Positions 13,846 to 62,202 of a stretch of 64,000 nucleotides of DNA are shown one piece after another (the stretch's first letter is position 1; each line of letters opens with the position of its first letter). Below the pieces are notes generated by a model, which saw only the letters and a list, made by a program, of their open reading frames with translations, was not told where the DNA came from and did no database searches. The DNA comes from Sphingomonas insulae (GTDB lineage Bacteria; Pseudomonadota; Alphaproteobacteria; Sphingomonadales; Sphingomonadaceae), in NCBI RefSeq assembly GCF_010450875.1, contig NZ_CP048419.1:21290-85289 (forward strand), written 5' to 3'. A program made the position numbers and the translations under genes.

Positions 13846-13865
13846 AGTGTGCCACGTGGCACACT
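13846..13865. promoter_or_regulatory. parS-like palindrome, copy 1
   Basis: Perfect 20-bp palindrome AGTGTGCCACGTGGCACACT. The core TGTGCCACGTGGCACA differs from the classical ParB site TGTTTCACGTGAAACA only at two symmetric positions per half. It is 95 bp after parB and 33 bp before the nic-like sequence, so ParB bound here could influence both partition and the relaxosome. Confidence 0.75.
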
Positions 13866-13876
13866 TGAAGGCTGAT

Positions 13877-13980
13877 TTTGGTGGGGGATGTTTGATGGCA
13901 GGATAGGTGTTGCTGCGTCCATTGTATTACATTATCCTTCGGTCATGTTGCCCACGCCGCAACCTTCATCCCCCACCAAA
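13877..13980 (-). other. oriT: Candidate origin of transfer (oriT)
   Basis: The intergenic region before mobC is framed by a perfect 14-bp inverted repeat, TTTGGTGGGGGATG (13877-13890) and CATCCCCCACCAAA (13967-13980). Just inside the left arm the minus strand reads CACCTATCCTGCC (13909 down to 13897), which matches the core of the IncP/RP4 nic region (CTATCCTG|C). By analogy the nick falls between 13899 and 13898 on the minus strand. MobC and a MOBP relaxase follow at once, as expected. Transfer would then start through parB, parA, ssb and repA. Confidence 0.7.
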
Positions 13981-13989
13981 GGATCAGCG

Positions 13990-14514
13990 ATGCTGACAGC
14001 GCGCGTTGATCGGCAGTTGCTTGCCGCGTTCGACGCGGTGGCCGAGGGCAGGGGAGGGCGCAGTGCGCTCCTCCGCACTGTCCTCCAGCAGGCGCTGAAG
14101 CATGTCGCGGACGCGCCTCGGATCGCGGCACGTGCCGACAGCGCCGGCAACCGCGTATCGCTCACGTTCACGGATGCGGAGACGGCCGTGCTCGATCATC
14201 GCGCCGCGGAGCGAGGTGTTGATCGCGCGGGGTGGATCAAAGCTCTGGTACGGCGACATATCGGGCTGAAGGGCACGGTCGACGACGGCCTGCGCGATGC
14301 CGTGGCGCCCGTCCGCATGCAGCTCCAGCGTATCGGCCGCAATCTCAATCAGGCGATGAAGGCTGGCAACGCTGCGATGATGGCCGACAGTGGCCTGCAG
14401 ATCGATCGCGAGCTGCGCCGGATCGCAGACATGCGCGAGGAGATCAACGAGCAGATCGCCGCGCTGGCGGACGTGCTGCGCGGCGAGATCGCCTTCTGGG
14501 AGGTCGCCGACTGA
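13990..14514 (+). CDS. mobC: MobC-like relaxosome accessory protein
   Basis: 174 aa from ATG 13990 (AAAGGATCAG before it). The first half has an RHH-like stretch (MLTARVDRQLLAAFDAVAEGRGGRSALLRTVLQQAL); a second one follows (VSLTFTDAETAVLDHRAAERGVDRAGWIKALVRRHIG). The C-terminal half carries the MobC motif LQRIGRNLNQAMKAGN and a long helix. MobC proteins help the relaxase open DNA at oriT. The stop overlaps the relaxase start in TGATG. Confidence 0.82.
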   Translation: MLTARVDRQLLAAFDAVAEGRGGRSALLRTVLQQALKHVADAPRIAARADSAGNRVSLTFTDAETAVLDHRAAERGVDRAGWIKALVRRHIGLKGTVDDGLRDAVAPVRMQLQRIGRNLNQAMKAGNAAMMADSGLQIDRELRRIADMREEINEQIAALADVLRGEIAFWEVAD

Positions 14515-15620
14515 TGCCGTTCGGGGACCGCGAGGACGAATTATGGGAGGCAATGAAGCCGAGCTTCAAGCCGCGCCTCGTCAGCGATCCGAACCTCAAA
14601 TATGCCCGTCATGTCGTCAATGGCACGGGGCCGTTCGCGGCCAAGTCGCCGGCAGCGTCGCATCTCCGAATGGATGCCAAGGCTACGCTCGCACGTGTCG
14701 TTCGAGGCACGCCCGAGGTGCTGGTCAAGGTAACGGGGCGCAAGAAGGGCGCTAAGCACCTCGCTGCGCATCTCGATTATATCGGCCGCCACGGCGACAT
14801 CCGGATCGAGACGCGCGATGGCGAGCATATCACAACCAAGGACGACGCTCAGCGGATCGCGGACGAATGGTCCGATCCTCTGTATTGGCGCCAGGGCACG
14901 ACCGTCTCGGCCGTGGCGATGGTGTTTTCCATGCCAGCAGGAACAGATCCCGAAACTGTGAAGCAGGCGGTCCGTGAGACGGCCGAGCGGATAGTCGGCG
15001 AGAACCACGACTATCTAATGGCGCTCCACACGGACACGCCGCGTCCTCATGTCCATCTTACGGTTCAGGCCGAAGGCCTTAACCGCAAGCGGTTCGATCC
15101 AAGACGCGAGGATCTGTTTCGCTTCCGGGAGGCGTTCGCGGAAGCGCTGCGCAGCCGCGGCGTCGAAGCAGAGGCGACCCCCCGTTACACGCGGGGCCAG
15201 GGTAGGGCCGGCACCAGCATGGCGCTCACCCAGCTACGCGCCCGGATACGTAGCGGGGCGTCCCGTCAGCCGACCGAAGCCGATCTACGGCAGGCCCGCG
15301 CAGCCATGCAGATAGCGCTCGGTAGAGCCGAGCAGCCCACGTTCGTCTCCAAGACTCGGGCGAGATGGCAGGACACCAAGCGGCGTTACGAAGCCGCAGC
15401 CGAACGTCTTGATCGCAGTCCCGAGCACGAGGATCGCAATCTGGCGCGTGACGTGCGGCAGTTCCTCCAGGAGCGGGCAAGCATTGAGACAATTCCTGAC
15501 AAGATGCTGCGTGAAGCAGAAGCGCGTATGAGAGAGGCGCAGGAGCGAACTAGGAGCAACCCGGCGCAGGATCAGGGTGTGCCACGTGGCACACCTCCGC
15601 CTCCAACAAGGCGGCGCTAA
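14514..15620 (+). CDS. MOBP-type relaxase (VirD2/TraI-like nickase)
   Basis: Relaxase that would nick oriT and pilot the strand. 368 aa. The catalytic Tyr is probably Y89 in AAHLDYIGRHGD. The metal-binding histidines are in ALHTDTPRPHVHLTV (H172, H179, H181), the HUH motif III of the MOBP family. The C-terminal ~150 residues are helical, charged and likely interact with the coupling protein. The last 14 residues are GVPRGTPPPPTRRR: the parS-like palindrome is embedded in frame here and encodes GVPRGTP. The protein is short compared with relaxase-primase fusions; a separate primase lies at 60.4 kb. Confidence 0.88.
   Translation: MPFGDREDELWEAMKPSFKPRLVSDPNLKYARHVVNGTGPFAAKSPAASHLRMDAKATLARVVRGTPEVLVKVTGRKKGAKHLAAHLDYIGRHGDIRIETRDGEHITTKDDAQRIADEWSDPLYWRQGTTVSAVAMVFSMPAGTDPETVKQAVRETAERIVGENHDYLMALHTDTPRPHVHLTVQAEGLNRKRFDPRREDLFRFREAFAEALRSRGVEAEATPRYTRGQGRAGTSMALTQLRARIRSGASRQPTEADLRQARAAMQIALGRAEQPTFVSKTRARWQDTKRRYEAAAERLDRSPEHEDRNLARDVRQFLQERASIETIPDKMLREAEARMREAQERTRSNPAQDQGVPRGTPPPPTRRR
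15576..15595. promoter_or_regulatory. parS-like palindrome, copy 2 (inside relaxase gene)
   Basis: Perfect 20-bp palindrome GGTGTGCCACGTGGCACACC within the last codons of the relaxase gene. It marks the boundary between backbone and the accessory region, which starts just after. Confidence 0.75.
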
Positions 15621-15847
15621 TTGCCAAGTGACAAGGGTGCGCGCTCCTGCATGGAGCGGGGCTAACGGCAGGCCAGCAAGCAAACGGGAATGGCGAGGCT
15701 TGGGGACATTTCCGTCAGGCGGCTATTTGGAGCTCCGCAGCGGATAGCTGCCGCTCGCTACGCCGCGAGCTGTCCCGAAAACGATCGGGAAAAGAGAATG
15801 GGCGAACCTCCTCGGAAGGTCTCGCAGCTTGTAAAATCGGTCGCCAC

Positions 15848-17572
15848 TCAGGGGGATGTGCCGCCTGCCATGCCACTCAACGTCTTTCGGCACTGGCGAT
15901 CGTTCAATTGGTTGATCTTTACTTCTTGAACACTGACCCGGCTCAATCCCTGCGGCAGGTAGCGGATGATGCGCTTAACGCCGTTATCCTCCACCCGCAG
16001 GCCGTAGGGGACGCTGGCATTGTCCGTCTCACCTTCGGTGCGCTCAACGATTTTCATGCCGTCGCGCAGACCTGCCACATAGGCCGGTAGGCGTGGATCA
16101 ACGCCGGTCACAACGTTACCGGCAGCGGCAGTCGCTTCCGCATCAAATCCTCGGGAGAACGAGGGGCGCTGATTAGTCACGATGGTGGCGCACGCTCCAA
16201 AGGTATCAGCAGGAAGCAAGATCGGCTCTCCGCCCTCCAGATACCGAGCTTCATCAGCCGCGATGTCCAGCCCTTTACGGTTCGCCATTTGGCGAAAAAG
16301 GTCCGTTGCGTATTCGCCGGACGTGCGGGCTGTGGCCAGTTGCGCGTGCATCACTGTGTCGAGATTGACCCGACCGCCACTCGCCTCAAGGAGCTTCCGG
16401 TTCCAGATCGCAGCCAGAAGCGCCCCCCGCTGATAGGCAAGCTTCTGCGCCGCGTCATTCTCCCAGAATGCCGAAGCTGCCTGCGGGCCGGAAAGGGTGC
16501 GCACAGGCGAACCGGCATAGGCCGCCAGCATCTCGTTCCACTGCGCCGCGAAATCCGCTGGCGAGATCAGGCCAGCGCGCACCATCAATGCCCGAGCGTA
16601 ATAGTCCGTGAAACCCTCGCTGAACCAGTAGTGAGCTGGCCGCGTCTTGCGGTCCTGGGGCATGGTGCCGAGGCGGGCAGAGTTCCACGTGTGGAAATAC
16701 TCGTGCGCGAGCAGCCACTTCATGCGTTCGAGGGGCGTGCGCTGATCGACCCATAGGGCGAAGGCATCACCCCGGCCTGTACCGCCCATGCTCATCACCG
16801 TTGGATCGCCGACGATGGGAGCGGCCGTCACCAGAAAGGGCGCGCGCCGGCCCGTCCGCCAGAAATCACGTTCGACGGCGATCACCTGACGGGCAAGCGC
16901 GTTCAACTGCTCTGGTGTGAAGGCGTAGCGCCCGATCGTCGCGACGCGCACGCCTGATCCGTCATGGGCCGAGAAGGTTTGCAGGTCACGGCCTCCGATA
17001 ACGATGCTTTCCAGCGCATCCGCGATGGTGCCGGAACGCAGCGCGCTACGGCTCCGGCCGGCAAGGTGCTCGAGATCGGACGCAAAGCCGATCCCCGGTG
17101 TACCTATCCAGTCGAACGTCGCAGGCACCGCTTCCCGCCCGCCGGGAAAGCCGAACAGCGCATTGCCGGCGGCATAGAACCAGCGCGGGCGGACGACGGG
17201 GCGGGCCTGTTCAGTGTCCTCGACAGTTGGGTCGTGATCGTAGGCGGACACGACCCGGTAGGAGACGGTCAGGTTTGCGCCAGGGACAGCGCGAATTTGC
17301 CAGTGTCCGCCATCGCGCCGTTCGACGATTGTCGCGCCCGCTACCTTGAGATCGCGCGTCCATTGCCAAAGACGGCGCTCACCGCTCCAACCGTCATCCC
17401 ACCGAAAGTCGGTGACTCCGGATGGGTCGGCGCGGAAGCTCACTTGTATGCGTAAGCCTGTAAGCTCGTCGCCCGACATCTCCGGAGCCAGCGTGTAATG
17501 GACAGGCTCCAGCCTCGTTGGCGAAGCCGCAGTGGAGAGTGAAAGGGCAGCAATGCTTAGCAGGAGGCGCAT
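15848..17572 (-). CDS. M61-family metallopeptidase with PDZ-like C-terminus
   Basis: Exported zinc aminopeptidase of the glycyl-aminopeptidase family. 574 aa from ATG 17572, which begins a signal peptide (MRLLLSIAALSLSTAAS); the in-frame codons further upstream would give a non-signal leader. The zinc site is HEYFHTWN (about residue 295) followed by FSEGFTDYY, whose Glu would be the third ligand. A late segment (NVVTGVDPRLPAYVAGLRDGMKIVERTEG) resembles a PDZ domain. It diverges from the histidine kinase gene across a copy of the accessory-region repeat. Confidence 0.85.
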   Translation of the reverse strand: MRLLLSIAALSLSTAASPTRLEPVHYTLAPEMSGDELTGLRIQVSFRADPSGVTDFRWDDGWSGERRLWQWTRDLKVAGATIVERRDGGHWQIRAVPGANLTVSYRVVSAYDHDPTVEDTEQARPVVRPRWFYAAGNALFGFPGGREAVPATFDWIGTPGIGFASDLEHLAGRSRSALRSGTIADALESIVIGGRDLQTFSAHDGSGVRVATIGRYAFTPEQLNALARQVIAVERDFWRTGRRAPFLVTAAPIVGDPTVMSMGGTGRGDAFALWVDQRTPLERMKWLLAHEYFHTWNSARLGTMPQDRKTRPAHYWFSEGFTDYYARALMVRAGLISPADFAAQWNEMLAAYAGSPVRTLSGPQAASAFWENDAAQKLAYQRGALLAAIWNRKLLEASGGRVNLDTVMHAQLATARTSGEYATDLFRQMANRKGLDIAADEARYLEGGEPILLPADTFGACATIVTNQRPSFSRGFDAEATAAAGNVVTGVDPRLPAYVAGLRDGMKIVERTEGETDNASVPYGLRVEDNGVKRIIRYLPQGLSRVSVQEVKINQLNDRQCRKTLSGMAGGTSP

Positions 17573-17613
17573 GTCTATATCGTAACGATGACGGGCGTTT
17601 CGACAAATATGAA

Positions 17614-17680
17614 CATCCCTGATTGGGCGCCGCCAGCAAGATGGCCGAGGCATTCCCGATGGGATGATTGATTGGGAATG
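17614..17680 (+). repeat. TTCCC/GGGAA extragenic repeat, copy at 17.6 kb
   Basis: Copy of the ~67-bp accessory-region repeat (CATCCCTGATTGGGCG..., GGCATTCCCGATGGGATG..., ending TTGGGAATG). It contains the shared block CCAGCAAGATGGCCGAGGC, identical to the copy at 44.9 kb. Lies between the divergent M61 peptidase and sensor kinase genes. Confidence 0.7.
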
Positions 17681-17761
17681 AGATGTTGCACGAGTAGGCG
17701 CGCCATCAACACCTTTGCACAAGCTTTGGACGAGAGGCGTCCATGTGCCAGAGGCGCACGC

Positions 17762-18835
17762 ATGTCTGGACGAGGTAAAGCAAGCATCAGGATCCCGCCA
17801 TGGCGCGCGATCGGTGCGGCGTGGGCGTTGGTTGCGCTCGCCTACACGCCGGCGGTGTGGCTGCTGAACGCCAGCGCCGGGTGGCGAACGCTGCTGGCGA
17901 CCATCGGTGCGATGATCCTGTTCTTTCTGCCTTGGGCGCTGGTCACCCCGGCTGTGCTGCGGGCGAGTGCGCGGCAGCCCCTAGGAGCAGGTCGCACCTT
18001 GCGATCTCTGATTGGGATCGGAGGAATGGGCGTCATCCTTGTTCCGGTTGTTACGGCCCTGGGCCTCATGCTGAACGAAGTTGCAGCGTGGCTGATCGAG
18101 GGGCGCCGCTTCCCACCCCTGGCGCAACTCACACAGGGCGGCACCATCACCTCCTTCTTCTCGGTTCCCGTCTATGTAGCGGTAATCGGCGTGGGTCAGG
18201 CGCTGCTGTGGATCCGCCAAGCAAGCGAGCGGGAGCGCCTGCGGGCCGATGCGCGGCTCGATGCGCTTCGGGCGCAGATCAACCCGCATTTCCTGTTCAA
18301 TGCGCTGACCGCCATCGGCGAATTGGCCCATAACGATGCCGGTGTAGCGCAGGCTGCAATCGCGCGGCTCGCTGCCGTGCTGCGCGCCACTTTGGCGGTC
18401 AAGCGACCGGAACTGATGCTGGCCGAGGAGATCGCGATCGCGAAGGATCATGTCGAACTCTATCGGCTGCTGCTGCCGGGGCCGCTCGACTTTCAGGTGA
18501 CGGCATCGCCTGCCGCCTGGAACGCCCGCGTGCCGGCGCTGATCCTCCAGCCACTGGTAGAGAACGCGCTGGTCCATGCGCTCGCTCGGATTGCAAAAGG
18601 GCGGCTGAGCATCGCCGCCGAGGACCGTGACGGGCGCCTGTCAGTGCATATCCGGAACTCGATGCCGGACAACGTCGCCCCCTCGCGAGGAGCGGGCTCG
18701 GGCTTTGCAAACGTGCGGGAGCGGCTGGCAACCCTCTACGGCACGGACGCGACACTGGCGACCGACGTCCAGGGTGGGCAGTTCATGGTGACGGTCGACC
18801 TTCCCCTGTCCACGACGGGCGACGCCACGGCATGA
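17762..18835 (+). CDS. LytS-family sensor histidine kinase
   Basis: 357 aa. Four hydrophobic segments in the first ~170 residues (WRAIGAAWALVALAYTPAV..., LLATIGAMILFFLPWALV, IGIGGMGVILVPVVTALGLML, FFSVPVYVAVIGVGQALLWI) anchor it. The phosphoacceptor region is LRAQINPHFLFNALTAIGELAH, the His_kinase/LytS signature, followed by the ATPase part with N-box LQPLVENALVHAL and a GSGFANVRERL G-box. Start ATG 17762 is the first that keeps the signal-anchor intact; an upstream ATG exists at 17672. It overlaps the response regulator by ATGA, so they form a two-component pair. Confidence 0.88.
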   Translation: MSGRGKASIRIPPWRAIGAAWALVALAYTPAVWLLNASAGWRTLLATIGAMILFFLPWALVTPAVLRASARQPLGAGRTLRSLIGIGGMGVILVPVVTALGLMLNEVAAWLIEGRRFPPLAQLTQGGTITSFFSVPVYVAVIGVGQALLWIRQASERERLRADARLDALRAQINPHFLFNALTAIGELAHNDAGVAQAAIARLAAVLRATLAVKRPELMLAEEIAIAKDHVELYRLLLPGPLDFQVTASPAAWNARVPALILQPLVENALVHALARIAKGRLSIAAEDRDGRLSVHIRNSMPDNVAPSRGAGSGFANVRERLATLYGTDATLATDVQGGQFMVTVDLPLSTTGDATA

Positions 18836-19545
18836 TCCGCACGCTCATCGTCGAGGACGTGGCGCTGGTGCGGGCCGGCCTTCGTCGCCTGCTGGCCGAG
18901 CATCCCGATGTGGAGGTGGTGGGCGAGGCCGCAACGGTCGCGGATGCGCTGGCACAGGCGGCCGCGACACGGCCGACGCTCGCTTTCCTGGACGTCGAGC
19001 TGCCCGACGGCACCGGGCTCGCGCTGGCGGAGGCGCTGGCGCATCCCCGGCCTGCTTTCGTCTTCCTGACCGCCTTTCCCGACTTCGCGCTGCCCGCCTT
19101 CGGGGTCGAGGCGATCGACTACCTGCTCAAGCCGGCGACGGCGGAAGATGTCGCCCGAGCGCTCGATCGGATGCGGCGCGCACAAGGGGCACACTCAGCC
19201 AAGCCTAGCAAACCGCGCCATCTCGAAATCCGAGACGGCGGGCGGACGATGTTCGTGCCGCTGGACGCGATCGAGCGTGTCGATGCCGCCGGCCACTATC
19301 TTTGCGTTCACGCGCTCGGCCAAGTGCACCTGCTGCGTACGCCGATCACCGAACTGGTGGAGCGGCTCGGCCCCGACTTCGTCCGGGTTCATCGCTCGAC
19401 GCTGATCCGGCTCGACCGGATCGCGGCGATCACCGACCGGCGTAACGGCGATGGCGACATTAGCCTCACGGACGGGAGCACGGTGCCGCTCAGCCGAACC
19501 TTTCGCGCCGAACTCGCGCGGCGACTTGCCGCAGCGGCACGCTGA
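18832..19545 (+). CDS. LytTR response regulator
   Basis: 237 aa. Receiver domain with acidic VED (residues 8-9), phosphoacceptor Asp in LAFLDVELPDGTG (about 55) and Lys in YLLKPA (about 101), followed by a LytTR DNA-binding domain (about 130-235) with IERVDAAGHYLCVHA and FVRVHRSTLIRLDRIAAI. It would be phosphorylated by the upstream kinase. LytTR proteins bind direct repeats; no obvious pair was identified beside neighbouring genes. Confidence 0.9.
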   Translation: MIRTLIVEDVALVRAGLRRLLAEHPDVEVVGEAATVADALAQAAATRPTLAFLDVELPDGTGLALAEALAHPRPAFVFLTAFPDFALPAFGVEAIDYLLKPATAEDVARALDRMRRAQGAHSAKPSKPRHLEIRDGGRTMFVPLDAIERVDAAGHYLCVHALGQVHLLRTPITELVERLGPDFVRVHRSTLIRLDRIAAITDRRNGDGDISLTDGSTVPLSRTFRAELARRLAAAAR

Positions 19546-19646
19546 CGCGCACGGCTCGCGCCACCAAGAACACTGCTCACGCCCGAACGGTTGCGGGCGA
19601 CGCATGGCCGCCGTCTTGCCTCCCACCGAGATCAGGGAGGCAGGTG

Positions 19647-20921: not shown

Positions 20922-20930
20922 ACAGCAGAG

Positions 20931-20998
20931 CGTTCTCGGAAACGAACGGCCAGCGAGACGGGCGACGCTTTCCCAGAAGGATGGTATTTTGGGAAAGC
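20931..20998 (+). repeat. TTCCC/GGGAA extragenic repeat, copy at 20.9 kb
   Basis: Copy in the common orientation: CGTTCTCGGAAACGAACGGCC..., ending ATGGTATTTTGGGAAAGC. It directly follows the amidohydrolase and touches the stop of the next, opposite-strand gene, so it may act as a shared 3' structure. Confidence 0.65.
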
Positions 20999-21189
20999 TA
21001 TTGTGGTGATGCCCTTCCTCGCTTGGTCCTAACGACGGAGCGGGCAGCAATCTCACCCACAAGCAATCCGCCAAGCACGAACCAATCTTCGCGGCTAAAC
21101 GGCCACGCGCTCCACCCGAGGACGCGGGGGATAATTAGAGCTAGCAGCCCCCCGACAAATGCGACGGGGATATGTTGCATAAGGCGCAT
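20998..21189 (-). CDS. Small membrane protein (63 aa)
   Basis: MRLMQHIPVAFVGGLLALIIPRVLGW is a hydrophobic N-terminal segment and WFVLGGLLVGEIAARSVV a second; the C-terminus is basic. AAGGA lies 7 bases before the ATG. It sits 30 bp downstream of another tiny membrane protein on the same strand. Nothing more specific can be said. Confidence 0.5.
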   Translation of the reverse strand: MRLMQHIPVAFVGGLLALIIPRVLGWSAWPFSREDWFVLGGLLVGEIAARSVVRTKRGRASPQ

Positions 21190-21219
21190 CGCATCGTCCT
21201 TGAACTAATGGCGTACCCA

Positions 21220-21474: not shown

Positions 21475-21556
21475 CGTCAACCGCCTCCGCTGAGATGATC
21501 GAAGTTAGACGATTGGCGACCGCGTTTGCAATCAGACGGGGATAGAGGCGGCGGGG

Positions 21557-21623: not shown

Positions 21624-21714
21624 TCCGCTATTGGTGGTAATCGGAACCTCCGGTTCTGGATTGAAAGCGAACTGGGGGCGTCACATAGAATGGGCACAGA
21701 TATACGGTAACGGC

Positions 21715-46858: not shown

Positions 46859-46888
46859 GCCGAGGTGTGCCACGTGGCACACCTCGGC
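46859..46888. promoter_or_regulatory. parS-like palindrome, copy 3 (longest)
   Basis: A perfect 30-bp palindrome centred at 46873/46874 with core TGTGCCACGTGGCACA, extended on both sides by GCCGAGG/CCTCGGC. It lies between the convergent nuclease-like gene and the end of the T4SS operon, so it could also work as a bidirectional terminator. Confidence 0.75.
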
Positions 46889-46913: not shown

Positions 46914-47651
46914 TTATCGCGATCGGGACTTCTGCAAGACCTGATCCTGCGCCATCTCCCGCACCCGCTGTTCCTGCTTCGCCTTAACCTCAATGCCGGC
47001 GACGGCTTCGCCGCGGCTGATCCGGGCCGCGACCTCCTCCTTGCGCTCCGCCACGAACTCGCGCTGCTTGATATGATCGCTCGGGAAGCGGTCGGCCGCG
47101 ACCACCATTGCGAGCGCCACATGGCTTTGCGCCTTGCGTAGATTGGGGTCCTTTGCGTTCTGAACGTCCGACTGTCGACGAAACCGCTCGGCCAGGTCGG
47201 TCCGCGGCTCCGCTTGTTCCTTGTTGTCGCGAGCCTGATTGGCAGTCCGCGTCGATCGTACTTGGTTGTCGGTATGACCGGCCTGACGAGCCTGCTCGCG
47301 CTCAGCCGCGGCCTTCGTCTTGTCGTCGGGCTTGTAGCTGTCGACCTTGATGCCCTGTGCGGATGCCGCGAGGTAGGCAGCGCGTTGGAACTCGGCGTCG
47401 CCGCTGACCTTGATCGACGTCCACCCGTTTTCTTTGGCGAGGCGGATCAGATCGGGGAGAGAGTCACGATCCTTCGCCTTGATCCGATCGGGGGTGATGG
47501 TCGCGACCGGCTGTTTGTCATGGGCGCTGCGATAGAGCTTGTTCCCGACCCTTAGAAACCGGGAGTCCAGCTCGGGCGGCACTTCCATCGGCCGCCTACG
47601 GCGGGTCTCGCTTTCCTTGCCGGTACCGGCAGCTTCGACATTCTCAACCAT
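46914..47651 (-). CDS. LPD7-domain conjugation-associated protein
   Basis: 245 aa. VPPELDSRFLRVGNKLYRSAHDKQPVATITPDRIKAKDRDSLPDLIRLAKENGWTSIKVSGDAEFQRAAYLAASAQGIKVDSYKP is an LPD7 (large polyvalent protein-associated) domain, found in relaxases and plasmid primases. The C-terminal half is a charged helical region. Last gene of the T4SS operon, 1 bp after the virD4 stop. May assist relaxase or DNA processing; no catalytic motif of its own. Confidence 0.75.
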   Translation of the reverse strand: MVENVEAAGTGKESETRRRRPMEVPPELDSRFLRVGNKLYRSAHDKQPVATITPDRIKAKDRDSLPDLIRLAKENGWTSIKVSGDAEFQRAAYLAASAQGIKVDSYKPDDKTKAAAEREQARQAGHTDNQVRSTRTANQARDNKEQAEPRTDLAERFRRQSDVQNAKDPNLRKAQSHVALAMVVAADRFPSDHIKQREFVAERKEEVAARISRGEAVAGIEVKAKQEQRVREMAQDQVLQKSRSR

Positions 47652-53177: not shown

Positions 53178-53178
53178 C

Positions 53179-53559
53179 TCAGCAGCTCGCATATGAGGTT
53201 GAGAGCGCGGCCGTCGGGCCGGCGCTCGGAGCAAGCGCGCCGATCGCCGGCACCTTACCGGCCTGCGATGTGTCCGATTGTCGTGGGGTTGTTGCCGCAT
53301 CTGGGGGCGGGAAAAGGTTTGTTGCCGGCGCTGGGGCTGATTGAGGTGTGCCACGTGGCACACCTGCAGCGGACGGTGCTGCAGCGGCCGACGTGGCGTT
53401 GCGCGCCGGGATTGATGGAAGAACCGTCCCGTAGAGGTTTGCAGGACGCTTCTGCCGTCCGTTGCAGCGGGGCAGCTTATCGTCCTTCGCGGCGACCGCT
53501 GGTGCCGGAGGAGTAAGAGCCGCGAGAGCGAGAAAGGCTGAGGCCAAACCGAGCTTCAT
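53179..53559 (-). CDS. Small exported T4SS protein in the VirB7 position
   Basis: 126 aa from ATG 53559. Signal peptide MKLGLASAFLALAALTPPAPAVAA; then KLPRCNGRQKRPANLYGTVLPSIP, the likely conserved part, and a Pro/Ala/Ser-rich tail ending TSYASC. No lipobox at the signal site. The parS-like palindrome (53344-53365) lies inside the gene and encodes GVPRGTP, the same peptide as in the relaxase. Lies between virB6 and virB8; role unknown. Confidence 0.65.
   Translation of the reverse strand: MKLGLASAFLALAALTPPAPAVAAKDDKLPRCNGRQKRPANLYGTVLPSIPARNATSAAAAPSAAGVPRGTPQSAPAPATNLFPPPDAATTPRQSDTSQAGKVPAIGALAPSAGPTAALSTSYASC
53344..53365. promoter_or_regulatory. parS-like palindrome, copy 4 (inside T4SS operon)
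   Basis: Perfect 22-bp palindrome with core TGTGCCACGTGGCACA extended by AGG/CCT, in the middle of the T4SS operon and within a coding region. A protein bound here could act as a roadblock to transcription of virB8-virD4. Confidence 0.75.
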
Positions 53560-54577: not shown

Positions 54578-54619
54578 TCACCGACCTTTCACTCCTACGC
54601 GGCCGCGAGACCTGACAAG

Positions 54620-55644: not shown

Positions 55645-55657
55645 GTCCCTCTCTCCT

Positions 55658-58048
55658 TCAGCTTGGCCGGCGACGTTGGTGGAAGACGGGGAGCCAGTTG
55701 GCCGGATCGGGGCCGAACTCGGCCGCTGCCTGGACCGCGATCGGCGTCGTCTCGGCACGGCCTGACAGCACGGCCAGCTCGTCGTCGAAACCGGTCAGAT
55801 CCAGCTCGACCACCACGCTGTCATGGCCCTGCTTCACAAGGAACTTGCGCGATTCCGGCGACAGTTCCTCGCGGATGAGCTGGTATTCCGCGTCAGTGAG
55901 GGAGAAGCCCTCGACATAGTCGCGGCGCGCTCCCTTGGGATTGGGAAGCATCACCTGCGTCGCGACCTGTTCGAGGATTGAGTGCGCAATGTCGCTCTTG
56001 AGCGCGTCCGCCGGCGACTGTGTGGCGAACACCATCATCGCGTTGCGCTTCCGGTACGTCTTCAAGCCGTCCTGCGCGAAGCTCCGGAACGCATCGTCGC
56101 CGAGCGCCTTCCAGAACTCGTCGACGGCGATGATCGTGCGCTCCCCGGTCAACAGCTTGTCGATCCGGTGGAACAGGTAGAGCATCAGCGGCGTGCGGAT
56201 GTCGGCGTTGTCGAGGAAGTCCGTCATGTCGAAGCCGATGAACCGCGCATCCAGCGTCATTTCGTCGGCCGCGTTGTCGAACACCCAGCCCATCGACCCG
56301 CGTGAGGTCCACTTTTCGAGCCGGGCGCCGATGCCCCCCGCGTCGGACATGCCCAACATCGTGCGCAGCGCGTCCAGCGAGCGATCCTCGTGCGGGAGCC
56401 GCATCACCGCGGCGACGCCTTCATCGATCAGGCGCTCTTCCTGGACCGTGATCGGCCGGCTTTCGGCACGGACGAGCTGGCGCACCCATAGCGACAGCCA
56501 GGCCCGATCCTCCGGCTTGTTCTCCAGCGCCTTCAAGGGCGCGAAGCCGGTCGGTTTGCCGTTCTCGAGCGTCAGATAGGTGCCGCCCGAGGCCAGCACG
56601 AAAATCTGCGCGCCCCGGTCCTTGTCGATGAAAATCTGGCGGGCGCCCGTCTTCTCGGCCTGCGCCATCAGGAAGTTGACAATGACCGTCTTGCCGCCCC
56701 CGGTGGGGCCGACGATCAGCGTGTGGCCGATGTCGCGCTTGTGGAAGCTGAAGAAATAGGGGCTGCGCGCGCTGGTCTTCATCAGCGCGACCGCGTCGCC
56801 CCAGTGGTTCCCGGTAGCCAAGCCGGCGGGGTAGGTGTGGAAGGGCGAGAACGCCGCGAAGTTGAGCGACGTGATCGGCGCCGGCCTCGCGCGCCAGGCG
56901 AAATTGCCGACGAGCTGGCTCCAATAGGCAGCTTCCAGCGCCGCCCCCTCGCGCGCCGCGACCATGCCGGTATCGGCAAGCGCCGCGCGCGCGATCGACA
57001 TGTTGTCTCGCAGCCCCTTGAGGCTGTCGGAATAGACCGCGAGCGTGAAGTGATGATCGCCCAGGACGAAGCGGTTGGACATGAGGTCGTCCGCCGCGTC
57101 GACGAGATCGAGCATCTGGCTTACGGCCCGATCGTCGGCGTTCTCCATCTGCTTCTGCCGCAGCCGGAAGCGCTCCGACGCCGCAGCGCGACCGAGGAAG
57201 GTGAAGGACTGCGTCAGCACGAACGCGAAATCGACGGCCAGCAGCGATTGGAACTGCGTCGGCGTCGTGGTCGCCGGATACTCCCGAATGCCGAAGATAC
57301 CTCCAAAGGCGCTGCGATCGGCGTCGCGGACCTCCACCGTCTCGCCGCCGAAGACGACGCGCTGGCGATAGAGCGCACTGCCGAGGTGCCCTCGGATGAT
57401 CGGGACACGGCGATGCCGGCCCGTCATCACCATTTCCGCGACCTCCATGGTCTCGGAGAATTTGAGCCCGTTGTACCCGTAGATCGACAGCCGGCGCGGC
57501 GAGCAGCGGTCCATCAGCTTCTCGAAATCGCGCGCCTTGTCCTCCAGCGCCTCCAGCAGGTCGGCGTCGACCGCATCGGCCTCCGCTTCTGCCCGCGCCT
57601 TGTTCCTGAAGAGCTGGACGAGCTTGTCCGCGCCATGGACCGAGGGGCGCAGCACCAGCGTCACGAAGAAGCGGTTGATGAACAACCGCTCCCTGTTCAT
57701 CCGCGCGAAGTAGGCTGCGTCGAGATCCCGCGCGAAGCGGGACCGGAAGTTGCCACCAGGATATTGCTCGACCCGCGCGCGGACGAGGTGCGTCCAGATT
57801 GACAGGCGATCGTCGTGCAGGTTGCGCAGCATCCCGTTGAGCTTCGCGTGCCAGTCGTTCAGATCGCGCACGTCGGCCGTCTCGAACGCCCGCCCCTGCA
57901 GCTCGAACGTCAGCATGATCGCGCCGGAATCGAGCATCACGACTTCGTCGGTGACATGCCGCGCATAGGGCAGGAACTTGGTCGGCATCACTTCCTTGAG
58001 CGCGACCTTCATCGGCACTTGTTCGGAGAGGCGATTGGCCCTAGCCAT
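55658..58048 (-). CDS. virB4: VirB4-like T4SS ATPase
   Basis: 796 aa. N-terminal VirB4 domain, then Walker A IVGPTGGGKTVIVNFLMAQAEKTGA (about residue 440) and Walker B TIIAVDEFWKALGDDAFRSF (about 650), followed by FATQSPADALKSDIAHSILEQVATQVMLPNPKG. Energises pilus assembly and transfer. Overlaps virB3 by 8 bp. Confidence 0.95.
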   Translation of the reverse strand: MARANRLSEQVPMKVALKEVMPTKFLPYARHVTDEVVMLDSGAIMLTFELQGRAFETADVRDLNDWHAKLNGMLRNLHDDRLSIWTHLVRARVEQYPGGNFRSRFARDLDAAYFARMNRERLFINRFFVTLVLRPSVHGADKLVQLFRNKARAEAEADAVDADLLEALEDKARDFEKLMDRCSPRRLSIYGYNGLKFSETMEVAEMVMTGRHRRVPIIRGHLGSALYRQRVVFGGETVEVRDADRSAFGGIFGIREYPATTTPTQFQSLLAVDFAFVLTQSFTFLGRAAASERFRLRQKQMENADDRAVSQMLDLVDAADDLMSNRFVLGDHHFTLAVYSDSLKGLRDNMSIARAALADTGMVAAREGAALEAAYWSQLVGNFAWRARPAPITSLNFAAFSPFHTYPAGLATGNHWGDAVALMKTSARSPYFFSFHKRDIGHTLIVGPTGGGKTVIVNFLMAQAEKTGARQIFIDKDRGAQIFVLASGGTYLTLENGKPTGFAPLKALENKPEDRAWLSLWVRQLVRAESRPITVQEERLIDEGVAAVMRLPHEDRSLDALRTMLGMSDAGGIGARLEKWTSRGSMGWVFDNAADEMTLDARFIGFDMTDFLDNADIRTPLMLYLFHRIDKLLTGERTIIAVDEFWKALGDDAFRSFAQDGLKTYRKRNAMMVFATQSPADALKSDIAHSILEQVATQVMLPNPKGARRDYVEGFSLTDAEYQLIREELSPESRKFLVKQGHDSVVVELDLTGFDDELAVLSGRAETTPIAVQAAAEFGPDPANWLPVFHQRRRPS

Positions 58049-58385
58049 TGCGGCCGAACCCCTTCCGCTTGATGCCCTTCAGGGGAAGCGGCGTGTAGCT
58101 CGACCCACCCCAGAAAACGCGGTTGCGGTTGGCGGCCTTGGTGCGGCCCCACAGGAAGATCAGCCGGAAGGCGTTGACGTCGTGGCGCACCACGAGGCGC
58201 GAAATGCCGAACATCACCGCGGCGACGACTAGGCCATAGATCGGGTTCGTCGTGCCGATCAGGGTAATGGCCGAGGCCAGCAGGATGACCACGGCCGCTT
58301 CGATCGGGATGCCCGCGAACAGCGCGGGTCGCGTCACCGCCAGGAACAGCGTGTTGCGCGCCATCACTTCCCGTTCTTCGTTCAC
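58041..58385 (-). CDS. virB3: VirB3-like membrane protein
   Basis: 114 aa from GTG 58385, with GGAG eight bases upstream; a GTG at 58406 and ATG at 58364 are alternatives. LFLAVTRPALFAGIPIEAAVVILLASAITLIG is the VirB3/TrbD signature (TRP..G), with a second helix NPIYGLVVAAVMFGISRLVV and a basic tail. Works with VirB4. Confidence 0.9.
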   Translation of the reverse strand: MNEEREVMARNTLFLAVTRPALFAGIPIEAAVVILLASAITLIGTTNPIYGLVVAAVMFGISRLVVRHDVNAFRLIFLWGRTKAANRNRVFWGGSSYTPLPLKGIKRKGFGRNG

Positions 58386-58448
58386 GCTACGCACTCCATG
58401 AGACACGGGCGGAAACGGGGCGTGGCGAACGCCCCGCTCCCGTAGAGA

Positions 58449-58814
58449 TCAGCCCGCGAGCTGATCGACGATCCAGGGCGCCGAGAAGATGATCGCGATG
58501 CCGATGATGACGGTGACGAGCGCCCCGGTGTTCACCCGGCCCGTCAGCCACCCGAACCCCGCCGCGATGAGCGCCAGGATCGCGATCGTGCGCAGCAGGC
58601 CGTTGGTCAGGAGGCCGAGGACGGCAGTGCCGAAGCTCTCCAGATTGGTCTGGGCGAACGCCGGCTCGGCCGAGAGCAGTGACGTCAGTGCCACCAGGCC
58701 GAACATCGATAGCAGCCGCGAGGCCTTGCGCTGACGCGGCGTCAGTGCGTCGACATAGCCCGTGACACGGATTCGGAGGGCGAGCGCGGGCCCGCCGAAA
58801 GATGCGAGGTTCAT
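58449..58814 (-). CDS. virB2: VirB2-like major pilin
   Basis: 121 aa. Long signal region ending SLLSAEPAFAQ, then two helices (AVLGLLTNGLLRTIAILALIAAGFGWLTG and GALVTVIIGIAIIFSAPWIVDQL), as in conjugative pilins. Start ATG overlaps the virB1 stop by ATGA; its N-terminal leader is longer than usual, so a later start is possible. Confidence 0.88.
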   Translation of the reverse strand: MNLASFGGPALALRIRVTGYVDALTPRQRKASRLLSMFGLVALTSLLSAEPAFAQTNLESFGTAVLGLLTNGLLRTIAILALIAAGFGWLTGRVNTGALVTVIIGIAIIFSAPWIVDQLAG

Positions 58815-59497
58815 CGGTTTTCTCCTTCTCCGGCGAGCCGCGCTCGCTCATATTCCGCCCTCGCGAACACGTCCCACGATGGCGGCGGTGTGGGAGGCGC
58901 AGCTTGTCGCTGTCCCGCATCGGACGTGTTTTCCTCGATCAGCGCGGCGAGCTGCGCAGCCGCGCTCGACCCCTCGCCGGTGTTCGTCGCGTCCGTGAAC
59001 GCGCCGACGCGAACCGCGACGGGCCGGACGCCGTCGGCAAAGCCGGCATTGCCGACTACCTTGCCGACATAGCCGTTGGAGAAGCCACGCGACTGCGATC
59101 CGGTATTATACATGGACAGGGCGATGCGGAGTGCGCGCTGGGGATGCAGCCCCGCGCGCACGCTGTGGTAGTTCCCGGACAGCACCGCCCCCGCCGCGGC
59201 GATGTTGGTGCACGGATCGAACACGTTGTCCCAGGTCAGGCCGAGGGCTTTCATGTTCCGGGAGTTGATCTGCCCGAGACCGAGATCGACCGAATAGCCC
59301 TTGCCGACATAGTAGCGGGCGGTTTGGACCGCTTGCGCGACGCTCGCGGCACGCGCGGGCTGGCGAGCAAGGCCGTTGACCCCGATCGCCAGCTCGAAAC
59401 CCCGGCTTTCCGTTTGCACGATTGCCGCGATCGTCTCCGGGGCGACACCTGGCGCACACTGCGCTGCCAACCCCAAGACGATTGCGGATGGGAGCAT
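58811..59497 (-). CDS. virB1: VirB1-like lytic transglycosylase
   Basis: 228 aa. AAIVQTESRGFELAIGVN contains the catalytic Glu (ESRG, about residue 30), followed by VDLGLGQINSRNMKALGL and SMYNTGSQSRGFSNGYVGKV, the SLT-type fold. Opens peptidoglycan for the channel. There is a Pro-rich tail. It overlaps virB2 by ATGA. Confidence 0.9.
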   Translation of the reverse strand: MLPSAIVLGLAAQCAPGVAPETIAAIVQTESRGFELAIGVNGLARQPARAASVAQAVQTARYYVGKGYSVDLGLGQINSRNMKALGLTWDNVFDPCTNIAAAGAVLSGNYHSVRAGLHPQRALRIALSMYNTGSQSRGFSNGYVGKVVGNAGFADGVRPVAVRVGAFTDATNTGEGSSAAAQLAALIEENTSDAGQRQAAPPTPPPSWDVFARAEYERARLAGEGENR

Positions 59498-59499
59498 CG

Positions 59500-59898
59500 T
59501 TACCGCTCCAATGTCCCGGAGCCTGGTATTGGCCCCGCCTGTGCTGTTGCCTCCGCTTGAGCGATCTGTGCGCTACTCGGCACCGTGTATCGGGTGCGGG
59601 AGCCATCCTGCATCGTCATCACGACGTAGCCGGGGCGTCCGTTCTTCGGCTTCGTGTAGTCCGCCTTGCGGACCCCGCCCGCGCTGCAGGTCGGAAAACC
59701 TCCGCCCAGGCCGAGATGGGTGATGAGCCTGCGGATCGGCGGAACGCACTCGGCGAACTGCATCCATCCACCCGGATTGCTGGCGCAGAGCAGGACTTCG
59801 CACGCCCAGGTCGAATCGGCTGCACGAGCGGGAAGCGCCGCCATCGAGGCAGTCAGGAGGCCAGCAACTGCCACATACGAAAACAAGCGATTTGCCAT
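59500..59898 (-). CDS. TrbM-like exported protein, first gene of the T4SS operon
   Basis: 132 aa. Signal MANRLFSYVAVAGLLTASMAALPARA; mature part STWACEVLLCASNPGGWMQFAECVPPIRRLITHLGLGGGFPTCSAGGVRKADYTKPKNGRPGYVVM has the paired Cys and 'CEVLLC...EC' of TrbM proteins. Two bases before virB1. An inverted repeat overlaps its ribosome site, so it is likely the control point of the operon. Confidence 0.65.
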   Translation of the reverse strand: MANRLFSYVAVAGLLTASMAALPARAADSTWACEVLLCASNPGGWMQFAECVPPIRRLITHLGLGGGFPTCSAGGVRKADYTKPKNGRPGYVVMTMQDGSRTRYTVPSSAQIAQAEATAQAGPIPGSGTLER

Positions 59899-59902
59899 GT
59901 TT

Positions 59903-59917
59903 TCACTCCTAGAGTGA
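59903..59917. promoter_or_regulatory. Palindrome at the start of the T4SS operon
   Basis: TCACTC-CTA-GAGTGA, perfect 6-bp arms, covering the AGGAGTG ribosome site of the TrbM-like gene. May be an operator or a translational hairpin for the whole transfer operon. Confidence 0.45.
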
Positions 59918-59996
59918 GAACAAGCTAAATCGCTCGGTCGCGATTGCCTAGCCCGAAAATGACAAAAGTTTCAGAACGGATGAACGGGTCGTCGCG

Positions 59997-60308
59997 TCAG
60001 AACGCCTTCTCGTCGCGCAGGCCGGGACATGGGTGGACGTGGACCACCTCCTCGTAGCCGTAGCCGAGGATAACGTGCCGGATGGCGGAAGATGCCTTTT
60101 TATACAGGCGAATACGCTTCTTGTCGTAGAGGCCGACATGGAACAAGGCGGTGCCGCGCCAGCTCACGCGAACATTGATGTACCACCGTCCACAATCACG
60201 CTGGCAGACATGGACGTCGGTGATCGTGCCGCCCGGGGGCCGCAGCGTCGTCAGTTCACGTTCTAGCAGCAGTTCCAAATCCACCCTTTTCCCCCTGTAG
60301 CGATTCAT
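59997..60308 (-). CDS. Hypothetical protein (103 aa)
   Basis: MNRYRGKRVDLELLLERELTTLRPPGGTITDVHVCQRDCGRWYINVRVSWRGTALFHVGLYDKKRIRLYKKASSAIRHVILGYGYEEVVHV... Start ATG 60308. No family recognised; a mixed alpha/beta basic protein, perhaps DNA-associated. Divergent from the primase gene and not overlapping the T4SS operon (98 bp gap). Confidence 0.55.
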   Translation of the reverse strand: MNRYRGKRVDLELLLERELTTLRPPGGTITDVHVCQRDCGRWYINVRVSWRGTALFHVGLYDKKRIRLYKKASSAIRHVILGYGYEEVVHVHPCPGLRDEKAF

Positions 60309-60335
60309 GCAGTTTTCACTGGTGCTTCGGGCTGC

Positions 60336-60369
60336 CCCCCGGTAGCCTCTACGCGTCCTGCACCGGGGG
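60336..60369. promoter_or_regulatory. Inverted repeat in the divergent promoter region before the primase
   Basis: CCCCCGGT (60336-60343) and ACCGGGGG (60362-60369), perfect 8-bp arms 18 bp apart, ending 9 bp before the primase start. Candidate operator or leader hairpin. Confidence 0.45.
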
Positions 60370-60377
60370 TGTCTTAG

Positions 60378-61262
60378 ATGGCCCAACGTCAGACCGCTAC
60401 GATCGAGGAACAGGCCGACCGCATCGTCCGCCAACTCGGGGGCAAATGGCATGGCGCGTCCGCCATGTGTCGGTGCCCTGTCCACGCCGATGGCAGGGCC
60501 AGCCTGTCGATCCGGGTCGGCGAACGCGCCGTGCTCTTCCATTGCTTCGCTGGCTGTACGACCGACGCGATCATGGCGGCGCTGCGCTCAGGCAGGATCC
60601 TCGCGCCCACCGACCATGACCCCGGTCAACGGCAGGAGGGCAAGGCCGACTTCAACAAGCTCGCGCTTGCCGTGTGGCGCCACGCCGAGCCCTTCGCCGG
60701 GACGCTCGCCGATCGCTACCTGCGCGAGGGACGCTCAATCGTCCCCGACGGGATCAACGCCCGTTTCGATCCGCGCTGCCAGTGCGGCGCCGGTGCCGCC
60801 AAGGCATTCGCGCCGGCGCTGATCGTGCCGATCGAGGAGGACGCCGGCGTCGTTGCGATCCACCGGACCTTCCTGACGCCTGATGGCCGCTGGAAAGCCG
60901 ACATGGACGAGCCCAAGCGGATGCTCGGCAATCCCGGTGTTGGTGCTGTCCGCTGGGGCGGCATCCCACTCGACGGTATCCTGCGCCTTGCCGAAGGTGT
61001 CGAGGACGCGGCCAGCGTGATGAACCTGCTCGGTGCCGGCCACTCCGTGTGGCCGGTCCTCGGGATCGAGCGGTATCAGGCCGTCGCCATTCCGGAGAGC
61101 ATCCATACCGTCGTCATTTACAGCCAGCATGGGGCCGAGGCGGCGCGCGCGATCGAGCGCGCCACCCCGCGCCTGACTGCCAACGGCCGCCAGCTCGTCG
61201 TCAAGCCGCCGCCCCACGCAGGCGACTGGAACGACCTTTTGCGCGAGATCCGCTCGCTATGA
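60378..61262 (+). CDS. Plasmid Toprim-domain DNA primase-like protein
   Basis: 294 aa. N-terminal zinc-finger part CRCPVHADGRASLSIRVGERAVLFHCFAGC, a linker helix region, then a Toprim-type domain (VWPVLGIERYQAVAIPESIHTVVIYSQHGAEAARAIERATPRL..GDWNDLLRE). The Toprim E is expected in RLAEGVEDAASVM (EGVEDA), while the usual DxD is partly altered (YSQHG), so catalysis may be changed. Primes lagging-strand synthesis or the incoming strand. Overlaps the next gene by ATGA. Confidence 0.8.
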   Translation: MAQRQTATIEEQADRIVRQLGGKWHGASAMCRCPVHADGRASLSIRVGERAVLFHCFAGCTTDAIMAALRSGRILAPTDHDPGQRQEGKADFNKLALAVWRHAEPFAGTLADRYLREGRSIVPDGINARFDPRCQCGAGAAKAFAPALIVPIEEDAGVVAIHRTFLTPDGRWKADMDEPKRMLGNPGVGAVRWGGIPLDGILRLAEGVEDAASVMNLLGAGHSVWPVLGIERYQAVAIPESIHTVVIYSQHGAEAARAIERATPRLTANGRQLVVKPPPHAGDWNDLLREIRSL

Positions 61263-61858
61263 AGCTGTTTCCGGGAGCGACGCGGTTCCAGCGGTGGACG
61301 ATGGGCGCGACGTTCCTGATCGTCGCGGGCTATGCCATTTCGCAGAACCGGCAGTCCCTCGTCGACGTGTCCAAGACGCGGCTGTCGTCGCCGAGTCCGA
61401 GGATCATCGACGGGGATACGATCGACTTCCCCAACGGACGTGTGCGGGTCGTGGGGATCGATGCGCCCGATGATGACCTACCGAGGCTCAAGGCATTGTC
61501 GAGCGATGCCTTGCGGCAGTTGTCGGCACGCGACGGCGGATTGGACTGCTCGGTGTCGATGTTCGATTATGCGCTGCGGCGCGAGAACCAGTGCCGGACC
61601 GACCCCAAGAGCTACGGCCGGTTGAACCTGGCGTGTCGCTTTCCCGCGAACAAGGCGAGTGTGGGCGCAACAATAGTCGCCCAGGGCTATGCGGTGGATT
61701 ACCGCGTGTTTTCGGGCGGGGCTTATGTCGCGTTGATGCAGAAGGCGGCAGCGCAGCGGGCGGGGCTATGGGGCGTGGACTACGAAGGGATGCGGCAGCT
61801 CGCGATCCGCAGGGCACAGGTGCCGCAGGGATGCGCCGTCGAGACGATCCGAAAGTAG
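61259..61858 (+). CDS. Exported SNase-family (thermonuclease-like) protein
   Basis: 199 aa. One N-terminal hydrophobic anchor (WTMGATFLIVAGYAISQ), then SPRIIDGDTIDFPNGRVRVVGIDAPD, the SNase core, with Asp residues of the active site (DGDT, D at IDAPD). YGRLNLACRF replaces the usual R-E region. Unusual in a plasmid primase operon; may trim DNA at the envelope or act as defence. Confidence 0.75.
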   Translation: MKLFPGATRFQRWTMGATFLIVAGYAISQNRQSLVDVSKTRLSSPSPRIIDGDTIDFPNGRVRVVGIDAPDDDLPRLKALSSDALRQLSARDGGLDCSVSMFDYALRRENQCRTDPKSYGRLNLACRFPANKASVGATIVAQGYAVDYRVFSGGAYVALMQKAAAQRAGLWGVDYEGMRQLAIRRAQVPQGCAVETIRK

Positions 61859-62202
61859 GCGGGGCCTGCCTTCGGCCCGCGCTCTACTCCGCGGCGCCGA
61901 CGCGCCGCTCCGCGGAACCCCGTCCGCGGGTTTCCGCCCATGCGGGTGACGATCGGCTAGGCTGGTGCGGACGGCGCCTGGGCGTGCGCCGGTCTATTGC
62001 AGAGGCGCTGACGATCCAGTCGTCAGTCTCGTTGGCCGATCGTCTCGCCCCTCGCTTATCGGGCTCGTTCAGCCCGCATGTTGAGTGTGCCACGTGGCAC
62101 ATGTTGGCGCGCGGCGTTGTCGGTGTGCGAGGGATTGCTCCGAGATTGCGCAAACAGGCACAGCCTGGTGTCACAACCGCTCGGTTTTGACCCTTCACGC
62201 GC
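61859..62202. other. Gene-free stretch holding parS-like copy 5
   Basis: No coding region seen between the SNase gene and the convergent Shedu gene. It includes TGTGCCACGTGGCACA at 62086-62101, a perfect 16-bp core without the outer extension of the other copies, so it may be a weaker site. The surrounding DNA is GC-rich without other clear structure. Confidence 0.7.

Follow-up and report, generated by a model that had tools for sequence, protein, structure and literature searches.

Dispersed palindromes of a Sphingomonas insulae plasmid are most probably ParB sites, one of them at a near-fixed distance from a nic-like motif

Analysis of a plasmid of Sphingomonas insulae (contig NZ_CP048419.1, here C1, 85,289 bp in whole, regarded as a plasmid on account of its rep, par, mob and type IV secretion system (T4SS) genes) identified the 16-bp palindrome TGTGCCACGTGGCACA in five exact copies, starting at positions 13848, 15578, 46866, 53347 and 62086 of a stretch of 64,000 nucleotides (C1:21290-85289; hereafter the window, in whose numbering positions are given unless C1 or another record is named). 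The palindromes are real and strongly conserved, and they are most probably ParB sites (parS or operator (OB) type) of the dispersed KorB/parS kind. Their most interesting feature is probably the copy in the putative origin of transfer (oriT), which seems to be phased relative to a nic-like motif. Copies a to e and the genes around them are listed in Table 1.

Copies of the palindrome on the plasmid and in the host genome

A sequence-only reading of the same DNA had pointed to five copies of one palindrome in the window, and all five proved to be exact; some of the starts given there include symmetric flanks and the core starts differ, copy c, for example, being the centre of a perfect 30-bp palindrome (46859-46888). 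No sixth copy had been noticed. This holds for the window, where a scan allowing up to three mismatches found no match beyond the five, but not for the whole of C1: the exact and one-mismatch search of the full replicon that had been proposed there yielded six exact copies and one single-mismatch copy, seven in total, the two outside the window being an exact one at C1:6928 and TGCGCCACGTGGCACA, with one mismatch, at C1:3638. The expected count in the window is 0.26 and none of 100 shuffles gave five copies; together with the absence of the reversed palindrome from the genome samples described below, this rules out chance or base composition as the source of the copies.

The remaining contigs of the host have no match to TGTGCCACGTGGCACA within one mismatch. 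Their sole match with two mismatches, TGTTCCACGTGGAACA, lies about 3-3.5 kb from the chromosomal parB, and on the 3.36-Mb contig C4 TGTTCCACGTGGAACA, TGTTTCACGTGGAACA and TGTTCCACGTGAAACA are all found within about 3.5 kb of parB. TGTGCCACGTGGCACA and TGTTCCACGTGGAACA are identical at 14 of 16 positions, with one change per half, and since TGTTCCACGTGGAACA is near the chromosomal parB, plasmid and chromosomal sites are as little as one base per half apart. The classical chromosomal parS, TGTTTCACGTGAAACA, is likewise a 16-bp palindrome with central CACGTG; the plasmid site differs from it by two symmetric changes per half, as had been correctly noted (letter 4 is G and letter 5 is C, each in place of T), and in being plasmid-borne and dispersed.

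Conservation of site positions and constraint on the DNA

The surroundings of the sites were compared for 58 copies with up to two mismatches, which were drawn from the plasmid itself, the whole records W01-W05 and W12, a piece of W06 and pieces of five genome contigs (W denotes plasmid records of relatives, G genomes, L fetched loci and C contigs of the host genome). W07, W08 and W10 were excluded because the core is absent there. The consensus of these copies is GGTGTGCCACGTGGCACACC. Fifty-four copies fall in groups of shared surroundings: eight each at oriT, at the 3' end of the relaxase gene and in the virB7-position gene; six after the LPD7 gene; 13 in leaders of ardC, a parB-like gene and others; and five, four and two in smaller groups. 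The four single copies include copy e, whose flanks match no other collected copy.

Leaving the leader group aside, pairwise identity in the four named groups is 0.97-1.0 for the core versus 0.29-0.72 for the 30-bp flanks. Among pairs encoding the same residue, the codons of the site show no synonymous difference either in the virB7-position gene (0/140) or in the relaxase gene (0/126), versus 47-48% elsewhere in the aligned stretches; the pairs are not independent, and the contrast is large all the same. The absence of synonymous change demonstrates that the constraint acts on DNA, and, together with the copies outside genes, it rules out protein-level conservation of GVPRGTP. Spread as a mobile repeat was also rejected, as the four main position groups have no more than about 20 bp in common with one another, while the leader group does share longer flanks.

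Long repeated leaders, 65-83% alike, are seen at L001:3633-3924, 6923-7218 and 10678-10909, upstream of ardC, of the large parB-like gene and of a third place. The palindrome is present in two of the three.

Co-occurrence with the plasmid ParB

The presumed binder of all copies is the product of the plasmid parB. It has a ParB_N domain with the GERR and ENxQR motifs (GERRWRA and ENDQRE) followed by a helix-turn-helix (HTH), the features of ParB/KorB-type centromere-binding CTPases; it matches TIGR00180 with 118 bits, and its PDB matches are ParB, Noc and KorB. The score of the KorB domain PF08535 is barely above the cut-off of 22.3 bits. RK2 KorB has a C-terminal dimerization domain; a profile of the C-terminus of the plasmid ParB returned no KorB entry, and a structure model was poor (pLDDT 48.5) and was not used.

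An exact copy of the palindrome was found in seven of 396 genomes sampled from the order, all of them from the genus of the window, and at least one copy in 54 of 295 genomes of the genus, whereas the reversed palindrome, used as a control, was found in neither set. Equal frequency in unrelated sphingomonad chromosomes, which the sequence-only reading had named as a finding that would speak against it, was therefore not observed.

A search of the same 295 genomes with the plasmid ParB (threshold E 1e-20) gave matches in 25. Four to seven exact copies are present in each of the 15 genomes whose ParB identity is 69% or higher; at least four copies are present in 15/15 genomes with this close ParB versus 6/280 without it (Fisher P 9e-21, genome relatedness being uncorrected). 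The three genomes whose ParB is only 56-59% identical have no copies, one of them (G610) probably carrying the same plasmid as W07. In the seven genomes with matches below 40% identity only, the numbers of copies are 0, 0, 2, 0, 0, 0 and 1.

A second type of Sphingomonas element (L164, L347, L351, L352 and L353-L354) has copies at a constant spacing of 883 and 3350 bp beside ardC, L352 showing two of the three copies. A close ParB was not found for these elements.

The same 16-mer in unrelated lineages

Scanning of one genome per species identified at least 120 stretches, of which 80 were analysed. Judged by their titles, 51 of these come from sphingomonads; another four contain genes of this plasmid family and are probably contaminants. 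The remaining 25 loci, in 23 genomes, were searched for ParB_N and further copies. In eight unrelated lineages the 16-mer is on the same contig as a parB-type gene: Thioalkalivibrio; a gammaproteobacterial metagenome-assembled genome (MAG); Euphemobacter, with three near-identical paralogues; a planctomycete MAG, 6.5 kb apart; a second gammaproteobacterial MAG, with a one-mismatch copy; a Gemmatimonadaceae MAG; a Granulosicoccaceae MAG, with a divergent ParB-like gene whose HTH was not read; and a Clostridia MAG. On the contig of the latter (C11 of G401, L290-L291), parA, parB and ssb are accompanied by seven copies spread over 18 kb, several of which immediately precede open reading frames (ORFs); the recognition helix of its ParB is RYVGLLKLP, versus RYQGLAKAP in the ParB of the window.

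The near-identical small ParB-like genes of the Euphemobacter MAG (L255, L257, L258) each have the 16-mer shortly upstream, as if self-regulated. Two Kiritimatiellae MAGs and an uncultured bacterium have two to three copies inside an ORF that we take to be mnmG-like.

Joint change of the site and ParB

The sequence of the site changes with ParB. The ParBs of W07, W08 and W09, 57-61% identical over the N-terminal two thirds, are accompanied by one TGTGGC-N4-GCCACA each, situated between parB and mobC, that is, in the oriT position. No other palindrome sequence was recognised as a dispersed repeat on W07 and W08. W10, with a ParB of 34% identity, has nine exact and two single-mismatch copies of GGTGGCAGCTGCCACC, which are dispersed as well: they lie upstream of ardC and the parB-like gene, in the parB-mobC gap, about 600 bp after the LPD7 gene and, among other places, in the virB10 region. 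Of seven anchor regions, four are shared with the S. insulae plasmid (simulation P 0.0006, with anchors chosen after seeing the data). The ParB matches further include 23 records at 36.7-37.6% identity, one of which was read. GGATTTAAATCC occurs three times on the single-site plasmid W07 (L016-L019; 972, 66519 and 71892) and may belong to another regulator.

In W11 and in G725 (locus L337) the site is CATGGCCCGGGCCATG, with A at letter 2. The residue equivalent to Caulobacter 173 is Gln in both CATGGCCCGGGCCATG loci, which share the recognition helix and hence count as one event, and Arg in the ParBs of the TGTGCC and TGTGGC plasmids; within clades A and B it is Arg wherever the site reads TG or GG. 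W10 has His at this place and G at letter 2. Published work is cited here by PMC identifier. In Caulobacter ParB/Noc, R173 reads guanine and Q173 adenine, while N178, conserved in ParB and Noc, contacts parS (PMC7383237). According to our own reading of the parS and Noc-binding sequences, the base read by residue 173 would be letter 2 of the 16-mer.

The equivalent of residue 178 is Arg in the plasmid-family ParBs read whose sites have the 49-52 bp spacing described below, and all four of their site classes have G at letter 4. This residue is Arg in the plasmid ParB versus Asn in the chromosomal ParB of the host; it is also Asn in all 27 readable proteins among 30 Pseudomonadota ParBs (22 by script, five by eye). 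In the same-contig ParBs of the unrelated lineages it is His or Arg in six of the seven lineages read (three by eye) and Asn in Gemmatimonadaceae. When the copy is on another contig than ParB, residue 178 is split, which speaks against a residue-178 rule: it is His in the two Kiritimatiellae MAGs, the uncultured bacterium and an Omnitrophica MAG, and Asn in a Muribaculaceae MAG, a Bacteroidetes MAG and several others. Some of these copies may be due to chance.

Geometry of the oriT copy

The nic-like motif GGCAGGATA, presumably the nick motif of MOBP plasmids, occurs in 53 distinct contexts among the loci fetched, and in 30 of them a 16-bp palindrome (at least 7/8 pairs matched) is located 25-66 bp upstream. 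The start-to-start distance is 49 bp in 19, 50 bp in seven and 52 bp in one, which makes 27 of the 30 contexts in a count without a negative control. The site classes in these 27 are TGTGCCACGTGGCACA with near variants, TGTGGC-N4-GCCACA, CATGGCCCGGGCCATG and GGTGGCAGTTGCCACC. Three loci with distant ParBs (L339, L345, L346) have other palindromes 39-40 bp from the motif, which is the spacing of plasmid RA3. Among the other 23 contexts, two represent altered oriT regions (W01, W12) and 21 lay outside the inspection. The 33-bp spacer of W10 is identical to those of five others at only 9-14 of 33 positions; since the spacer is poorly conserved between classes, its length is kept rather than its sequence.

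RA3 (IncU), with IncC-KorB, offers the nearest known layout. Its ParB is of the KorB type; a 16-bp palindrome lies upstream of the nick motif in the interval from the partition genes to mobC, and two additional KorB sites are present elsewhere (PMC8124265). The KorB site of RA3 at 9707-9722, the coordinates being those of the parS deletion (PMC8124265), reads TTTCGTACGTACGAAA and starts 39 bp before GGCAGGATT, one helical turn closer than the 49 bp observed here; RA3 also has fewer sites and belongs to another host group. KorB binding at this upstream palindrome comes from earlier work cited in PMC4175270. The KorB site of RA3 at the same place argues for ParB rather than MobC on the oriT palindrome, and the parS-oriT-mobC layout is already known, because RA3 has it. 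What seems to be new here is the near-fixed distance of the oriT palindrome from the nic-like motif across several site sequences. In the open-access literature we found no description of a fixed parS-nic spacing with a one-turn difference and no match to TGTGCCACGTGGCACA, GGTGGCAGCTGCCACC and their 14-bp cores.

Proposed function and alternatives

Co-occurrence with ParB, joint change of site and ParB, and the presence of the 16-mer near parB in unrelated bacteria support the earlier suggestion that these are ParB-type sites dispersed as for KorB. We consider it probable that they are clamp-loading sites of the plasmid's own KorB-like ParB, the oriT copy being the parS beside the nick region and the rest additional loading points. 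The oriT copy is probably the oldest, because all related clades have it. Its role would be that of the centromere, and since its distance from the nick region is fixed, we propose that the partition complex and the relaxosome assemble side by side. From the copies in the relaxase gene, in the T4SS genes and in the leaders of ardC and the large parB-like gene, ParB-CTP clamps could spread over the backbone and help partition; spreading ParB would probably also adjust the expression of transfer and establishment genes. By analogy with KorB (PMC11790492) and NAH7 ParB (PMC12421886), ParB is likely to load at the palindromes and spread from them, to act in partition at the oriT copy and to modulate nearby genes. 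For the plasmid described here we infer the binding, the sliding with CTP and the sign of regulation. Regulation of conjugation by ParB at the copies is plausible, while promoter-operator logic fits only some of them, because two of the five window copies are in genes and one follows the end of an operon.

Several observations weigh against this interpretation. Thirty-nine of the 54 copy-bearing genomes of the genus lack a close ParB, and six of these have at least four copies; no such parAB was found on the whole contigs of G270 and G520, on nearly the whole contig of G362 and on parts of those of G309, G334, G524, G545 and G556. With the exception of G334, these stretches share at least one of the nuclease, ardC, parB-like and Fic genes with the window plasmid, and we take the copies without a close ParB as mosaic remnants; the reason for their staying intact is unexplained. 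The backbones of W07 and W08 are colinear with the window plasmid, yet have a single site each, so dispersal is not required for this backbone. The oriT copy of W01 is short of one central base and starts 48 bp away from the motif, and in W12 the distance is 79 bp with a longer, partly duplicated spacer. In RA3, separating parS from oriT by a 1-kb insertion had no significant influence on transfer, and deletion of parS had no effect on stability in E. coli, the results for P. putida being different (PMC8124265). For the hosts used in that work, these findings speak against transfer depending strongly on the proximity of parS to oriT.

It is rather unlikely that the copies serve partition only, as redundant parS without a regulatory role whose places reflect old backbone modules. 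Such a role would suit copies lying in genes and after operon ends and not just at promoters, and the authors of the RA3 study explain stability without parS by the extra KorB sites (PMC8124265). However, the positions recur in the distant W10 with another sequence, the post hoc choice of anchors being kept in mind; copies occur in the repeated leaders of ardC and the parB-like gene; and KorB and NAH7 ParB do regulate (PMC11790492, PMC12421886).

Binding of the palindrome by the relaxosome protein MobC instead of ParB could be suspected, as the copy common to all clades is in oriT before mobC and RA3 MobC binds an imperfect palindrome (PMC4175270). It is very improbable given that RA3 MobC binds at the mobC promoter, the upstream palindrome being the KorB site (PMC4175270), and given the similarity of the 16-mer to the parS-like site of the host chromosome, its presence near parB genes in unrelated bacteria and the letter-2 base, which follows the ParB residue known to read it. 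The same similarity to chromosomal TGTTCCACGTGGAACA, one base per half, could indicate parS mimicry, with the chromosomal ParB of the host binding the plasmid copies; we give this little credence, since the oriT copy changes with the plasmid ParB while the hosts remain sphingomonads, and the residue facing parS, 178, differs between the plasmid and chromosomal proteins. The large parB-like protein (C1:7479-9317), which has a ParB-type domain and copies upstream of its gene, was rejected as the binder and is the least credible candidate, since no such gene was found in W04 despite its six copies, whereas in W07 and W08 the gene is present (69-75% identical) but these copies are absent.

Under the preferred reading, in which the plasmid ParB binds the copies, a further-reaching idea may be put forward tentatively, and we regard it as possible though doubtful. 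The parS could be a built-in, helically phased part of oriT, with the ParB complex and the relaxosome both bound on one face of the DNA, so that the spacing would step by about one helical turn (39 bp in RA3, 39-40 bp in the three distant loci, 49-50 bp in 26 loci and 79 bp once, with a longer spacer); a single ParB at oriT and the dispersed sites would switch between inheritance and transfer; and residue 178 would read letter 4 of parS (T by Asn, G by His or Arg).

Genes around the copies

The sequence-only reading had also tentatively linked the sites to defence via Shedu. This link is not supported, as copy e lies past the 3' end of the Shedu gene, and in W02, W04, G270 and G275 the nuclease gene next to copy e is likewise followed by copies.

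Table 1. Palindrome copies and surrounding genes in the window
Feature	Position	Strand	Description
parA	12000..12740	+	Walker-type ATPase, 246 amino acids (aa); Pfam AAA_31/CbiA
parB	12737..13750	+	ParB_N and KorB-domain protein, presumed binder of all copies; PF02195 61.1 bits, PF08535 23.0 bits
Palindrome copy a	13848..13863		Exact; parB-mobC gap, putative oriT; 97 bp after the parB ORF; 49 bp start to start from GGCAGGATA
nic-like motif GGCAGGATA	13897..13905	+	Conserved between parB and mobC
mobC-like gene	13990..14514	+	Relaxosome protein (ribbon-helix-helix, RHH); RHH_1 23.7 bits; NikA-like 21.5 bits, under its cut-off of 27
MOBP-type relaxase gene	14514..15620	+	PF03432 57.2 bits
Palindrome copy b	15578..15593		Exact; near the 3' end of the relaxase gene, 14 codons remaining; encodes GVPRGTP; same place in 8 plasmids
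Palindrome copy c	46866..46881		Exact; 32 bp past the end of the LPD7 gene closing the T4SS operon; same place in 6 plasmids
LPD7-domain gene	46914..47651	-	Ends the T4SS operon; PF18821
Small secreted-protein gene	53179..53559	-	virB7 by position only; contains copy d; from ORF and sequence; conserved in 8 plasmids
Palindrome copy d	53347..53362		Exact; inside the virB7-position ORF between virB6 and virB8; same place in 8 plasmids
Palindrome copy e	62086..62101		Exact; between the nuclease gene and the Shedu 3' end, 101 bp past the 3' end of the Shedu ORF
Shedu SduA gene	62203..63456	-	3' end facing copy e; PF14082 125 bits

The small secreted-protein gene has no NCBIfam match. A 66-aa ORF between ssb and parA (11506-11706, minus strand), without Pfam matches, is a possible autoregulator of parAB; it is preceded by the inverted repeat GATACCGCA...TGCGGTATC (about 11716-11765), an arrangement kept in W01, W03 and W06 of nine relatives examined. 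At 2644-7616 a large ResIII-domain gene stands beside a gene judged DNA-methylase-like from its sequence, a probable type III restriction-modification pair on the plasmid.

Relation to known systems and significance

The comparison with KorB made by the sequence-only reading is apt. The OB sequence of RK2 KorB is TTTAGCSGCTAAA, from which the dispersed palindrome described here differs; on C1 no other perfect palindrome of at least 12 bp occurs more than twice, OB itself not having been scanned for. The clamp-locking partner of KorB in the RK2 regulon is KorA. RK2 is a conjugative plasmid, and its KorB, which is related to ParB, has 16-bp sites, several of them close to promoters or at a distance from them; it combines partition with long-range silencing, acting as a CTP clamp that silences from distal OB (PMC11790492). 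The ParB of NAH7 (IncP-9) likewise has six dispersed inverted repeats (parS1-6) on the backbone near transfer and par genes, but these are 18-bp intergenic sites, TTTCTCGCATGCGAGAAA, NAH7 ParB activates T4SS genes, and the protein shown at the NAH7 oriT is ParR (PMC12421886). StbA of R388 is a stability protein with sites (stbDRs) beside oriT and in other promoters that affects stability and transfer, although the stbDRs are 9-bp direct repeats (PMC3098194). These systems give differing data on physical coupling of partition and conjugation: the RA3 insertion is harmless, NAH7 ParB is activating and R388 StbA inhibiting. To our knowledge, StbA is not a ParB-fold CTPase.

The plasmids analysed here form a natural series, in which the same backbone has one site (W07, W08) or four to seven sites (the clade of the S. 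insulae plasmid), and the related W10 has nine to eleven sites of another sequence, the parS-nic geometry being kept nearly fixed. Judging by the correlations of ParB residues 173 and 178 with the site, orthogonal ParB-parS pairs may be predictable by a simple rule. The oriT copy, at a fixed distance from the point where the DNA is cut, may tie the inheritance of the plasmid to its spread.

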